A stretch of 64,000 nt of DNA from Armatimonadota bacterium (GTDB lineage Bacteria; Armatimonadota; Fimbriimonadia; Fimbriimonadales; Fimbriimonadaceae). The translations under genes and the position numbers were made by a program. The notes below the pieces were generated by a model. That model did not search any database and had not been told where the DNA came from. It was given only the letters and a program-made list of their open reading frames with translations. Below, one piece after another: positions 48,571 to 55,057 of the stretch. Every line of letters starts with the position of its first letter. The stretch's first letter is position 1. The DNA lies in assembly GCA_018268315.1 (NCBI GenBank), contig JAFDWU010000002.1, positions 391,638 through 455,637 of the forward strand, read 5' to 3'.

Positions 48571-50064
48571 ATGCTCTCGCTCTCTGGCCAATCGCTGACC
48601 CTTGAAGAACTCGAAGAGGTTGCCTATCGAGGGCGAGTCGTCTCGCTCGATTCCGCTGCACGCAAGGAAATGGAACGAAGCCTTGCCGTGGTTCGCGACA
48701 TTGTTGAGAGCAACAACCGGATTTATGGCGTAAACACAGGGTTTGGTCGCCTATCCGACGTCAGCGTGGGCCATGACGAGTTGAAGGCGCTACAGCTTAA
48801 CTTGGTCCGTTCACACGCCTGTGGAGTTGGGCAGCCCCTCAGCGAGCCAGAGACCCGCGCGATGCTGTTGCTGCGAGCGAACGTGCTTGCCAAGGGCCTG
48901 ACGGGCGCAAGGCCGGTTGTCGCGGAGACCCTGCTGCTGATGCTGAATCGCGGTGTGCTTCCGGTGGTGCCGGAAAAAGGCTCGGTAGGCGCTAGCGGAG
49001 ACCTCGCCCCCCTCGCCCATCTTGCCCTCACCGCCCTCGGCGAAGGCGAAGCCTTCTACAAGGGCGTCCGCATGCCTTCCGCCGAGGCGATGAAGCTGGC
49101 CGGCATTGAGACGATTCACTTGGAGGCCAAAGAAGGGCTGGCGATGCTGAACGGCACGCAGGCAATTCTTGCCTTGGGCGGCTTAGCTCTCGCGCGGGGC
49201 CTTCGCGCGGTCCGTTCTGCCACGACGGCGGGCGCGATGTCCCTGGAAGCTCTCATGGGCACTCCTGCCGCATTCGACGAAAGGCTGCACCTGGCTCGCC
49301 CCCACCCCGGCCAAATCGCCGTAGCAGCACACCTGCGCTCCCTGCTCGCCGATAGCGAGATTCGAGAATCGCATCGAGAGAACGACCCGCGTGTGCAAGA
49401 TGCCTATTCCTTGCGCTGCATGCCCCAGGTTCATGGCGCAGTCCTCGACACACTTAGCCATGCCAAGCGAGTGGTTGAGATCGAAATGGGCTCGGCAACC
49501 GATAACCCCATCGTCTTCCCTGAAACCGGCGAGGTCATCAGCGGCGGCAACTTCCACGGCGCGCCGGTCGCCCAAGTAATGGATTTCGCCGCCATCGCGC
49601 TCACCGATCTTGGCGCGATCAGCGAGCGCCGTATCGACCGCCTGGTGAACCCAGATGCCAACGAAGGCATGCCCGCCTTCCTCTCGCCTAGCGCGGGGGT
49701 CAGCAGCGGATTCATGATCGCCCAGGTCACCGCGGCGGCGCTGCTGGCCGAGTGTCGGGTGCTTTCCCATCCTTCTTCGGTGGACAGCGTCCCCACATCC
49801 GGCGGCAAAGAGGACCATGTCTCAATGGGAACTACCGGCGCAGCAAAGCTGCGAACAGTTGTCGAAAACGTGGAAACGATCATCGGCATCGAGTTCATGT
49901 GCGCTGCTCAGGGACTGGAGTTCCGCAAGCCGTTGCGTCCGGGCAAAGCGGTTGAGAGCGTGTACCAAGATATCCGCAAGCGAGTGGCGCCCCTCCAGGA
50001 AGACCGCATCCTCTCGGGCGACATCGCCGCCCTCGCCGAGTTCGTGCGAGACCTACGGGTTTAA
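48571..50064 (+). CDS. hutH: Histidine ammonia-lyase
   Basis: First step of histidine breakdown: histidine to urocanate plus ammonia. The autocatalytic MIO cofactor forms from A141-S142-G143 in GSVGASGDLAPLAH. IYGVNTGFGRLSDV and EMGSATDNPIVFPETG confirm the family, and the length (497 aa) is typical. GGGGAGAG lies near 48550, about 15 nt before the ATG. It is divergent from sufB and is the first gene of the hut cluster, followed by an aquaporin and hutU-hutG-hutI on the same strand. Confidence 0.97.
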   Translation: MLSLSGQSLTLEELEEVAYRGRVVSLDSAARKEMERSLAVVRDIVESNNRIYGVNTGFGRLSDVSVGHDELKALQLNLVRSHACGVGQPLSEPETRAMLLLRANVLAKGLTGARPVVAETLLLMLNRGVLPVVPEKGSVGASGDLAPLAHLALTALGEGEAFYKGVRMPSAEAMKLAGIETIHLEAKEGLAMLNGTQAILALGGLALARGLRAVRSATTAGAMSLEALMGTPAAFDERLHLARPHPGQIAVAAHLRSLLADSEIRESHRENDPRVQDAYSLRCMPQVHGAVLDTLSHAKRVVEIEMGSATDNPIVFPETGEVISGGNFHGAPVAQVMDFAAIALTDLGAISERRIDRLVNPDANEGMPAFLSPSAGVSSGFMIAQVTAAALLAECRVLSHPSSVDSVPTSGGKEDHVSMGTTGAAKLRTVVENVETIIGIEFMCAAQGLEFRKPLRPGKAVESVYQDIRKRVAPLQEDRILSGDIAALAEFVRDLRV

Positions 50065-50099
50065 CTCGAAGCGGCTCAAACGACTTTTGCTACGTCCTT

Positions 50100-50117
50100 G
50101 CTGTAACTGGTTACAGC
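50100..50117 (+). promoter_or_regulatory. Perfect palindrome abutting the aquaporin start
   Basis: GCTGTAAC-TG-GTTACAGC, 8-bp arms, immediately before ATG 50118. It could be an operator for a dimeric repressor or, in RNA, a hairpin covering the start. No Shine-Dalgarno sequence is visible for the aquaporin. It does not recur as a perfect copy upstream of the other hut genes. Confidence 0.65.
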
Positions 50118-50744
50118 ATGAAACTGCTCTGCGAATTTGTCGGAACGTTCCTCTTTTTACTTGTCATCTCGATCACGCCCGATGGTCCGACCAAAGCGAT
50201 GGTCATCGGCACGATCTTGATGGTGATGGTCTTCATGGGGGGCGCCTTCTCCGGCGCTCACTATAATCCGGCCGTCACCTTGGGCGTCGCGCTTCGCAAG
50301 AAGATGCCCGCGGGCGATGTGATTCCCTACATGCTGGTTCAATTTGCCGCCGGCGTTTCCGCTTTCCTTGTCGGCTGGTGGCTTACCAACAAGACTCCGG
50401 GCATCGCCCCCGCTCTCGACGCAACCATTCCCCAAGCACTGATAACGGAGATGATCTTCACCTTCGGCCTTGTTATGACGGTGCTTTGCGTAACCTCCCC
50501 CCAGAACAAGGGGAACAGCTACTTTGGCCTTGCCATCGGCTTTTTCATCTTCGCGGCGGCTTCCGCCGGAGGGCCGATTTCCGGCGGCGCTTTCAACCCC
50601 GCGGTTGGGCTTTCCGCCACGCTTGTTAAAGCATTAGTAGGTGGAGGCAACTGGAGCCACCTCTGGCTCTACATCGCCGGGCCCTTCGTCGGCGCGATCC
50701 TTGCCGCACTGGTGTACGGCGAGATCAACCGCGAAGACCGCTAG
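50118..50744 (+). CDS. Aquaporin/MIP family channel with non-canonical selectivity filter
   Basis: 208-aa channel with six TM helices and both half-helix motifs: FSGAHYNPAVTLG and SGGAFNPAVGLS. In water channels and GlpF the second motif is NPAR; here the arginine of the ar/R filter is Val. By alignment on the preceding Pro, the H5 filter position also appears to be Ala rather than His or Gly. A wider, less polar pore is therefore expected, as in plant TIPs with NPAV, which conduct ammonia, urea or peroxide. It lies between hutH and hutU on the same strand. A role in moving ammonia or formamide made by histidine catabolism is inference from position. Confidence 0.88.
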   Translation: MKLLCEFVGTFLFLLVISITPDGPTKAMVIGTILMVMVFMGGAFSGAHYNPAVTLGVALRKKMPAGDVIPYMLVQFAAGVSAFLVGWWLTNKTPGIAPALDATIPQALITEMIFTFGLVMTVLCVTSPQNKGNSYFGLAIGFFIFAAASAGGPISGGAFNPAVGLSATLVKALVGGGNWSHLWLYIAGPFVGAILAALVYGEINREDR

Positions 50745-50778: not shown

Positions 50779-52437
50779 ATGTCGCTAACGACGCCTACCC
50801 CCGCGCGCTCGGGGATGACGCTTTCTTGCAAAGGGTGGCACCAGGAAGCCGCTCTTCGAATGCTCCTTAACAACCTCCACCCGGATGTTGCCGAGCGGCC
50901 CGACGACCTCGTGGTGTACGGCGGCACCGGAAAAGCCGCCCGCAATAAGGAGTGCTTTGAGGCGATCGTCCGCACACTTCAGGAGCTCGAGAACGATGAG
51001 ACGCTCCTAATCCAGTCCGGGAAGCCGGTAGGCGTTTTGCGGACCCACGAGTACTCCCCGCGCGTGCTACTTTGCAACTCGAATCTGGTTGGCAAGTGGT
51101 CGAACTGGGATGAGTTTCACCGGCTGGAGAAGCTTGGCCTGATGATGTACGGTCAGATGACGGCGGGCTCGTGGATTTATATTGGCAGCCAAGGCATCGT
51201 GCAGGGCACCTATGAGACTTTCGCCGCTGCCGCCGAGCGCCACTTCGGCGGATCGCTGAAAGGAAAGTTTGTTTTGTCAGGCGGAATGGGGGGCATGGGC
51301 GGCGCTCAGCCTCTTGCCGCCACCATGAACGGCGCGGTGTTTGTCGGCATTGACGTTGATCGCTCGCGAATTGAAAAGCGGCTGCACACGCGCTACTGCG
51401 ATGTTCTCGCTGAGTCGCTTGACCATGCATTAGAACTGGTGGAGGAATGCAAAGCCCAGCAGAAGGCGCTTTCCATCGGCCTGGTGGGCAACTGCGCCGT
51501 GGTTCTGCCGGAGCTAGTTCGGCGCGGGGTTATTCCCGACGTCGTGACTGACCAAACCAGCGCCCACGACCCACTTAACGGCTACGTGCCGAAGGGGCTC
51601 TCGATGGACGAAGCCGCCGCTCTGCGAAAGGACGACCCTGAGGGCTATGTGAAGCGCTCCATGGCCTCCATGGCCGAGCATGTAAGCGCGATGCTTGAGA
51701 TGCAACGCCAGGGTGCGATCGCTTTCGACTACGGCAACAACATCCGCACGATGGCGCATGATGCGGGCGTCGCCAACGCATTTGATATCCCCGGCTTCGT
51801 ACCGGAATACATCCGGCCCCTGTTCTGCGAAGGAAAGGGTCCCTTCCGGTGGGCGGCGCTTTCCGGCGATCCGGAGGACATCTTCCGGACCGACAAGCTG
51901 GCAGGAGAACTCTTCCCGAAAAACGAAGGCTTGCAGCGCTGGATCGCGCTTGCGAAAGAGCGCATCGCCTTCCAGGGCCTGCCTGCCCGCATCTGCTGGC
52001 TCGGATACGGCGAACGCGCCGAGATGGGAATGGCCATCAATCGCCTGGTCGCCAAGGGCGAGATCAAAGCGCCCATCGTGATTGGCCGCGACCATCTCGA
52101 TTGCGGCTCGGTGGCTTCGCCCTATCGCGAGACGGAAGGAATGAAGGACACCAGCGACGCGGTTGCCGATTGGCCCCTGCTGAACGCCCTTGTGAACACC
52201 GCCGCTGGCGCTTCGTGGGTCTCGATCCACAACGGCGGCGGGGTTGGCATCGGCTACAGCCAGCACGCGGGAATGGTGGTGGTCGCCGATGGCACGGCGG
52301 AAATGGACAAGCGATTGGAGCGTGTGCTGACCAGCGATCCCGGCATGGGAGTGCTGCGGCACGTGGACGCCGGATACGAGATCGCAAACGATACCGCAGC
52401 AAAGAAGGGAGTGAAGATTCCCATGCGGGGCAAATAG
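50779..52437 (+). CDS. hutU: Urocanate hydratase
   Basis: NAD-dependent hydration of urocanate to imidazolonepropionate (552 aa, typical). Motifs are [39 protein letters not shown] (dinucleotide-binding region), [18 protein letters not shown] and the active-site region [13 protein letters not shown], with [14 protein letters not shown] near the end. It is directly followed by hutG, whose TTG start abuts the stop codon, so the genes are cotranscribed. Confidence 0.97.
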
Positions 52438-53322
52438 TTGCTCTTCAACGATCCGCATTGGCTTCGCGCCTCCGAGTGGCTGTCTCGGGCAAAGACAGGC
52501 GGCGTTGGAATCATGGGTGTGCCCCTGAACGCCTCGATTTCGCCAGGCAGGTGCGATCTGGCCCCCGGCGCCATTCGCGAAGCCCTTACCCGTTTCTCGC
52601 CTTACGATCCGGGCGCGGACCTCGATGTTTCAACTCTCGGCATCAAGGACTGGGGCGATCTGCATGTTTCAACCGCGAGAGAAAGTGTGGCGACCATTGC
52701 GGACGCTCTTGAACTGCCGCTGCAACAATCCGAGGCGATGGTGCTGCTAGGCGGCGACAACGCGATTACCCGCCCAGGGGTCCGGGCGCTTGGTCGGATT
52801 GACCGCGTTGGGCTGATCACGTTCGACGCCCATTTCGACCTGCGCGATCTCTCACTCGGCTACATCAACGGCAACCCCATTCGCGCTCTACTCGATGACG
52901 GCTTGCCGGGCAGCCAGATCGTGCAAATTGGAATTCAGGCGTTTGCCAATTCTGCGCCGTATGGCGCAGTCGCCCGCGAAGCGGGCATTGAATTCGTGAC
53001 CGCGCCGCGAGTGCATGCTGAAGGCATCGGCCACCATGTTGAGCGGGCGCTGGTGAAGCTCTCGGAAGCGGTCGATGCGATCTACATCGACCTCGATATC
53101 GACGTGCTTGATCGGTCTTTCGCTCCTGCTTGCCCTGGTTCCCGACCCGGCGGCCTGATGCCCTGGCAGCTTAGAGAAGCAGTAAGGATTTGCGGGCGCC
53201 ACCACAAGGTGCGGATGATGGATATCGTAGAAATCGACCCCCGGAATGATGTCGCCGACAGCACCGTTCTGAATGCGGCGGCATGCCTGCTTGAGTTCTG
53301 CGCCGGAGTTCGCGAACGGTGA
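52438..53322 (+). CDS. hutG: Arginase-family formimidoylglutamase with Asn at a metal-ligand position
   Basis: Hydrolyses formimino-glutamate to glutamate and formamide. It has the arginase-fold metal motifs FDAHFDLRD (D130, H132, D134) and DLDIDVLD (D220, D222). The first motif is GGDNA, where canonical arginases have GGDHS; N108 replaces the usual metal-binding His. Some formimidoylglutamases are known with Asn at this position, so it need not be inactive. The start TTG 52438 directly follows the hutU stop. It overlaps hutI by 4 bp (GTGA). Its position in the hut order hutH-hutU-hutG-hutI supports the assignment over arginase or agmatinase. Confidence 0.9.
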
Positions 53323-54545
53323 ACCGCCTCGCGGTTCTGAACTGCGGCCAGCTAGTCACGCTTGCGGGTCCCCCTTCTCGCCGCGGCGGGCAAATGCGCG
53401 ACCTCGCTATTGTCGAGAACGGCGGTGTCTTAATCGAGGGCGATCGCATTGTGGCGGTAGGCCACTCAGCAGAAATTGATGCCGTGGGCGCCGAAATCAT
53501 CGGCGCCCAGGGGCGCGTTGCGACCCCCGGCCTAGTGGATTGCCACACCCATGCCTTCGTCGGCAACCGACAAAACGAATTTCAAATGCGCGCGCAAGGG
53601 CGCAGTTACGAGGAGATCGCCGCCGCAGGTGGTGGCATCCTGAACTCGGTGAAAGCCGTTCGGGCGGCAACGCCAGCAGAAATTCGCGCGTCATTGAAGC
53701 TGCACTTGGAATGGTGCTTGAAGTGCGGAAGCACCACCGTGGAGGTGAAATCCGGCTACGGCCTGGACCTTCCAAACGAACTGAAGCTTCTAAGGGCAAT
53801 CACCGAACACGCCGGGTCCCCAAGAGCAATTCCAACCTTCCTCGGTCTTCACGCGATCCCGCCCGAGTTCAAGGGAAACCGGGAAGGCTACGTTGATCTC
53901 ATTCTGAACGAGGTCCTTCCCGAAGTCGCCAAGCAGGGACTAGCCCAATTTGCCGACATCTTCGTTGAGCAGAACTATTTCACGCCGGGCGACGCCGAAA
54001 AACTTGCCGCCGCCTGCAAACAGCACGGGCTGAAGCTGCGAATGCACGTGGATCAACTCACCGATGGAAACGGGGCGCAGCTCGCCGTCGAACTCGGCGC
54101 GGTCAGCGCCGAGCATCTGGAGCAAACGAGCGCCGCCGGCGCGAAGAGGCTGGGCGAATCCGAGACCTGCGCCGTGATCGTGCCCGCCAGCGTATTCGGC
54201 CTAACGAAGACAACCTATCCAAACGGCCGGCTGCTTATCGATAGCGGCGCGATTCTGGCGCTCGCCACTGATTTCAACCCAGGCTCATCGCCCACACCAA
54301 GCCTTCCCTTCGCAATGACGCTCGCCGTCCACAGTTGCGGTCTCACCGCCGAAGAAGCTTTGACCGCCTGCACCGTCAATGCCGCCTACAGTCTTGGCCT
54401 CAGCCACGAGATCGGCAGTCTTGAGCCGGGCAAACGGGCGGACTTGGTTCTGTGGGATGTAAGCGATGTCGCCGAGATTCCTTATTACTTCGGCGCGCCG
54501 CTGGTCCATACGGTTATCGCTGGCGGACAGCCTGTCACCCTCTAG
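53319..54545 (+). CDS. hutI: Imidazolonepropionase
   Basis: Amidohydrolase that opens the imidazolone ring, giving formimino-glutamate (408 aa). It has the metal-binding VDCHTHAFVGNRQNEFQMR, KSGYGLDLPNELK, the FLGLHAIPPEFK histidine, the RMHVDQLTDGNGAQLAVELG segment and the catalytic Asp in ALATDFNPGSSPT. It starts at GTG 53319, overlapping the hutG stop. It is the last hut gene in the cluster; a short exported protein follows 35 bp downstream. Together with the three other enzymes it gives the complete four-step route to glutamate and formamide. Confidence 0.97.
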   Translation: MNRLAVLNCGQLVTLAGPPSRRGGQMRDLAIVENGGVLIEGDRIVAVGHSAEIDAVGAEIIGAQGRVATPGLVDCHTHAFVGNRQNEFQMRAQGRSYEEIAAAGGGILNSVKAVRAATPAEIRASLKLHLEWCLKCGSTTVEVKSGYGLDLPNELKLLRAITEHAGSPRAIPTFLGLHAIPPEFKGNREGYVDLILNEVLPEVAKQGLAQFADIFVEQNYFTPGDAEKLAAACKQHGLKLRMHVDQLTDGNGAQLAVELGAVSAEHLEQTSAAGAKRLGESETCAVIVPASVFGLTKTTYPNGRLLIDSGAILALATDFNPGSSPTPSLPFAMTLAVHSCGLTAEEALTACTVNAAYSLGLSHEIGSLEPGKRADLVLWDVSDVAEIPYYFGAPLVHTVIAGGQPVTL

Positions 54546-54580
54546 CTGTATCTTTGGCTTCGGTTCCTTGGTGGCCTAAG

Positions 54581-55057
54581 ATGAAGGACATGCTTGCCTT
54601 TATCGCTGCCCTCGTTCTCACCGCCCAAGCTGCTAGCCAAAAGTCGGCCCTCGATTTCTGGGTCGGCTCATGGGATGTCTACTCAGGCAAGGACCTTGAC
54701 GGCCACGACATGGTGGAAAAATCACTGGATGGCAACGCCATAACCGAACGCTGGAAAGGCGTCTCGCCCGGCGACGAAGGCATGAGCCTGTTCTACTACC
54801 GCCCGTTCCTCGGCTCTTGGAAGCAGGTTTGGGTGACGCCAGTGGGAATGTACAAAGAGAAGGAGTCGGAGCTAGTACCTGGCGGCATCCGGTTCACGGG
54901 CAAGGCGTTCGGCCCGAAGGGGCGAACGATCGACGACCGCACAACGCTCACATTGAACCCGGACGGAACCGTGCGACAAGTGATCGAAAGATCCAAAGAT
55001 GGCGGAAAGACTTGGGAAGTTGGGTACGACGCGATCTACCGCCGCTCGAAGGGCTGA
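54581..55057 (+). CDS. Small exported protein of unknown function (DUF1579-like)
   Basis: 158 aa. The signal peptide is MKDMLAFIAALVLTAQA, cut near AAS. The mature part has FWVGSWDVYSGKDLDGHDMV and ITERWKGVSPGDEGMSLFYY, reminiscent of DUF1579-type beta-barrel proteins. The start is ATG 54581; the in-frame ORF from 54452 runs inside hutI. It lies 35 bp after hutI and is convergent with map (1-bp gap). Function unknown; possibly cotranscribed with hut by chance. Confidence 0.75.
   Translation: MKDMLAFIAALVLTAQAASQKSALDFWVGSWDVYSGKDLDGHDMVEKSLDGNAITERWKGVSPGDEGMSLFYYRPFLGSWKQVWVTPVGMYKEKESELVPGGIRFTGKAFGPKGRTIDDRTTLTLNPDGTVRQVIERSKDGGKTWEVGYDAIYRRSKG

Follow-up and report, generated by a model that had tools for sequence, protein, structure and literature searches.

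An aquaporin with an arginine-free I-A-G-V filter among the hut genes of an Armatimonadota bacterium as a member of a known, functionally uncharacterised group

The window, a stretch of 64,000 nucleotides from the genome of an Armatimonadota bacterium, carries an aquaporin gene within a hut operon, and the encoded protein is best read as a further member of the already known, functionally uncharacterised group of IAGV aquaporins. Regarding its role, we consider it probable, albeit with reservations, that the protein serves a general function as a passive channel, letting through water and small neutral solutes, and that its position among the hut genes arose by rearrangement. The initial annotation had placed the gene between hutH and hutU, an arrangement confirmed by profile matches to both neighbors. 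The locus comprises the following features:

48571..50064, + strand: hutH, histidine ammonia-lyase (TIGR01225, 685 bits)
50099..50118, no strand assigned: perfect 9-bp inverted repeat TGCTGTAAC-TG-GTTACAGCA, whose final base is the A of the aquaporin start codon
50118..50744, + strand: I-A-G-V filter aquaporin (MIP family), complete ORF starting with ATG, 208 aa, assigned by Pfam, alignment and predicted fold
50779..52437, + strand: hutU, urocanate hydratase (TIGR01228, 936 bits)
52438..53322, + strand: hutG, formimidoylglutamase of the arginase family with a GGDN motif (3m1r match; below the NCBIfam cut-off)
53319..54545, + strand: hutI, imidazolonepropionase (TIGR01224, 407 bits)

The genes thus run in the order hutH, aquaporin, hutU, hutG and hutI on the forward strand, with 53 bp between hutH and the aquaporin, 34 bp between the aquaporin and hutU, 0 bp between hutU and hutG, and a 4-bp overlap of hutG and hutI. 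A consensus scan revealed neither a sigma-70 promoter nor a terminator between hutH and the aquaporin, which may simply be co-transcribed with the hut genes. Beyond hutI, an ORF of 201 aa (54452-55057), whose listed start overlaps the hutI end, displayed no Pfam or NCBIfam match.

The HutG score in NCBIfam was 149 bits, whereas 229 are needed; its closest solved structure is the formimidoylglutamase 3m1r (E 1.8e-40), and its best solved relative being such an enzyme, the hut pathway probably releases formamide, as the initial annotation had proposed. HutG displays GGDN where arginase-family enzymes mostly have GGDH, and the GGDN motif is common to the HutG proteins of relatives and to 3m1r. 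The tight same-strand placement of the aquaporin, together with formamide as a likely product, would be in agreement with a channel recruited specifically to the hut pathway, releasing from the cell the ammonia produced by HutH and the formamide produced by HutG; given the distribution of the linkage described below, we regard such a recruitment as unlikely.

The aquaporin ORF matched the Pfam MIP profile (PF00230) with 116 bits, the cut-off being 25, and both NPA motifs are present. An AlphaFold2 model (mean pLDDT 94.9) displayed six long and two half helices and superposed over the whole chain on solved aquaporins (Z about 30), so that the MIP domain, the two NPA half-helices and the six membrane helices of the MIP/aquaporin superfamily are all found in this protein. 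The predicted fold does not point to any one substrate. Filter positions were assigned in two ways, by residue alignment to AtTIP2;1 (5i32) and AqpM (2evu), and by counting from the NPA motifs, yielding Ile30 (H2), Ala148 (H5), Gly157 (LE1) and Val163 (LE2), a filter without arginine, aromatic residue or histidine:

50205..50207, + strand: H2, Ile30 (Phe in AqpZ, His in TIPs; Ile in 89 of 93 relatives)
50265..50273, + strand: first NPA motif, Asn50-Pro51-Ala52
50559..50561, + strand: H5, Ala148 (Ala in 85 of 93 relatives)
50595..50606, + strand: second NPA followed by Val163 (NPAV), LE2

The alignment upheld two observations of the initial annotation, namely the valine that follows the second NPA in the place of the filter arginine, and the alanine at H5; with the Ile at H2, to which that annotation did not refer, the filter has lost its aromatic residue as well. 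Conversely, its appeal to plant TIPs carrying Val at this position as conductors of ammonia, urea or peroxide is weaker than claimed. AtTIP1;1 and AtTIP1;2 are listed urea channels and the TIP2s ammonia channels (PMC1866351), and in AtTIP2;1, the ammonia channel of known structure, the contacts to ammonia are made by His63, His131, Gly194 and Arg200 (PMC4814140); that is, it keeps the arginine and uses two histidines. The two proteins have in common their fold (Z 30.5; 1.4 A over 201 residues, at 31 percent identity), a Gly at LE1 and an aliphatic residue at H5. However, AtTIP2;1 has His63, Ile185, Arg200 and the loop-C His131 where, in the residue alignment, the window protein has Ile30, Ala148, Val163 and Pro94, respectively, so that of the ammonia contacts the latter has the Gly only, and the combination of His at H2, Arg at LE2 and a loop-C His of plant TIP-type ammonia channels (PMC4814140) is absent from it. 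E. coli AqpZ (1rc2) is alike in fold and NPA motifs, whereas its filter is Phe-His-Thr-Arg; the window protein differs from the water-selective Phe-His-x-Arg type and scored 62 bits against the NCBIfam AqpZ model, which needs 256. Likewise, Ile and Val occupy the positions of the Trp at H2 and the Arg at LE2 that characterize GlpF-type aquaglyceroporins. The four residues do coincide with the IAGV filter of prokaryotic aquaporins as defined in PMC6912568.

A literature search for IAGV aquaporins retrieved the work of Tong et al. (2019) and no transport assay of any member. Their paper (PMC6912568) describes such proteins from Planctomycetota and Verrucomicrobiota, lists IAGV filters for Singulisphaera, Isosphaera, Methylacidiphilum and Opitutus, and treats the function of these channels as unclear. 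The published proteins have the same four filter residues, and the clade studied here has relatives from both phyla; in the gene tree it takes in an Opitutus sp. and Planctomycetaceae loci, which may share descent with the published IAGV proteins. In contrast, the published members are listed without a hut context, whereas the window protein belongs to a hut operon and is divergent, its best identity being about 55-58 percent.

A genome scan recovered at least 558 relatives; 93 members were aligned for the filter counts. The exact I-A-G-V combination was present in 76 of these 93, and judging from the alignment NPAV is no chance slip, because 89 of the 93 clade members retain Val at LE2; one of the scan patterns contained NPAV, which biases the counts for LE1 and LE2, whereas neither pattern covered H2 or H5. 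Val at LE2 was also found in all 12 nearest orthologues recovered by the first whole-protein search, which was free of this bias. Among the listed matches, loci belonged to Planctomycetota, Verrucomicrobiota, Bacteroidota, Actinomycetota, Gemmatimonadota, Chloroflexota, Acidobacteriota, Pseudomonadota and others. Within Armatimonadota the clade is carried by 25 genomes, its limit being marked by a gap in E-values from 1e-70 to 1e-43. In the gene tree, the I-A-G-V clade is set apart by a branch with 99 percent support from NPAR aquaporins found in the same families; among the latter is the second aquaporin of the genome under study (G000:C1:1001211-1001837), a conventional NPAR protein. Plasmid-borne sequences were considered as close kin and rejected, the best plasmid match having 45 percent identity and most being near 30 percent; S. 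meliloti AqpS, from an arsenic operon, was also considered.

An experimental parallel to this filter is rat AQP1 H180A/R195V, which kept its water permeability and gained permeability to NH3 and urea (Beitz et al. 2006, as described in PMC3621907). The mutant shares with the window protein the Ala at H5 and the Val at LE2; it differs in keeping Phe56 at H2 and in being engineered rather than natural. By analogy, permeation of NH3 or formamide would be plausible in the window protein, which lends some support to recruitment by the hut pathway. On the other hand, the double mutant AQP4 H201A/R216A has a wide pore, yet passed neither urea nor glycerol (PMC6937295), which makes filter residues poor predictors of solutes. 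Retained water permeability, as described in PMC3621907 for AQP1 mutants with such substitutions, would also suit a plain water channel serving osmotic adjustment, in which the odd filter changes little. This reading, too, we regard as unlikely: a conventional NPAR aquaporin is already encoded in the genome, the water role of the group was left open by Tong et al. (PMC6912568), and the strong conservation of the filter over many phyla suggests selection for more than plain water flow. We favor a tetrameric, passive channel whose filter consists of small, mostly apolar residues. The loss of the arginine, the histidine and the aromatic residue would leave this filter wider and uncharged, and could allow water to pass down its gradient along with small neutral solutes, the candidates being ammonia, urea, formamide, glycerol and hydrogen peroxide; the IAGV group would then serve some general physiological need.

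The linkage to hut genes was private to the genome under study. Flanks of up to 7-8 kb around the aquaporin contained no hut gene in any of the other 24 orthologues from Armatimonadota, while hutU is present elsewhere in the genome in 21 of the 24; in the three others (G051, G142 and G176), which have the orthologue, hutU was not found, which also speaks against a channel dedicated to the hut pathway. Reciprocally, no aquaporin was found in 20 hut loci of relatives. Two genomes (G020 and G017) have hutH and hutU adjacent, with 75-80 bp between them, and in G020 the orthologue sits on a different contig from this pair. Over the wider collection, hut genes occurred in 2 of 80 loci, at 7 and 9 kb, in a set where contigs were often short and 6 kb were available on both sides in 33 of the 80 only, so that some hut linkage may be missed. 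The L098 locus deserves mention. Its aquaporin is one of two that group with the window protein in the gene tree (88 percent), and about 7 kb upstream of it lie hutU, a hutF-like gene and hutI; this would favor a tie to the hut pathway, but several unrelated genes intervene.

The initial annotation had proposed that a recurrence of NPAV aquaporins next to hut genes in other genomes be checked, and had named a lack of co-occurrence in relatives as evidence against its proposal; within Armatimonadota, such a lack is what the 24 orthologues displayed. Of its suggested channel for hut waste solutes, the part that stands is that a conserved filter without arginine could pass small neutral solutes, and the part left unsupported is the role in histidine breakdown. 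We infer that the gene was probably relocated recently, landing between hutH and hutU by rearrangement in this lineage. Since its neighbors elsewhere are unrelated, the hut position says little about what the channel carries. A more ambitious proposal, in which the IAGV aquaporins constitute a distinct class for ammonia and small neutral solutes, one of which was recruited into a histidine operon in order to vent ammonia and formamide, seems to us quite unlikely.

Co-occurrence was assessed in 85 genomes of the same family, 23 with the aquaporin and 62 without. Before tree correction, hutU was present in 22/23 genomes with the aquaporin vs 36/62 without it (Fisher p 6e-4), an association expected from a hut-specific channel. 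The ammonium transporter Amt displayed the opposite pattern (4/23 vs 42/62; Fisher p 5e-5, before tree correction), which would fit an ammonia channel standing in for Amt, an explanation that we deem highly improbable. Glycerol kinase follows a pattern like that of Amt (2/23 vs 31/62; Fisher p 4e-4, before tree correction), which points to shared ancestry, and the genome under study has an Amt of its own (G000:C2:490846-492033). Moreover, on the rpoB tree the aquaporin changes seven times only, and supported branches yield five independent pairs; with so few, none of the associations of hutU, Amt and glycerol kinase could reach significance there. The anticorrelation with Amt was accordingly discarded as evidence of ammonia transport (median sign-test p 1), and common descent may account for each of the three associations, which are leads only. 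Amt was not found in 39 of the 85 family genomes, some of them incomplete, and was present in 14/14 control genomes.

The relevance of these findings lies in the group rather than in the locus: the hut placement adds little because relatives do not share it, whereas the I-A-G-V group has been conserved in bacteria of many phyla and has a natural filter resembling that of the AQP1 mutants described in PMC3621907 as leaking ammonia and urea. A transport assay on one member would reveal the selectivity of such a filter.

The inverted repeat at 50099-50118 could be an operator or a start-codon hairpin. As a shared operator it was rejected: its core has no second exact match anywhere in its own genome, the repeat was not found upstream of 23 orthologues, and perfect inverted repeats of this kind occur in seven places within the window.

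No recurring neighbor of the clade was found among the 93 loci, the commonest families lying near the aquaporin in 5 of them. In four Bacteroidota loci (L109, L116, L145 and L168), a peroxiredoxin-like gene, named by eye, divergently adjoins the IAGV aquaporin. This arrangement, together with the known existence of a Streptococcus aquaporin that exports H2O2 (PMC6912568), would suit a channel for hydrogen peroxide or gas, which we consider very unlikely, as this neighbor occurs in 4 of 93 loci only, all from one phylum, and in none from Armatimonadota. An aldo/keto reductase-like gene, also named by eye, is found close to the aquaporin in five loci from different phyla (L117, L149, L164, L166 and L174), and in four of them it is adjacent to the aquaporin and on the same strand.
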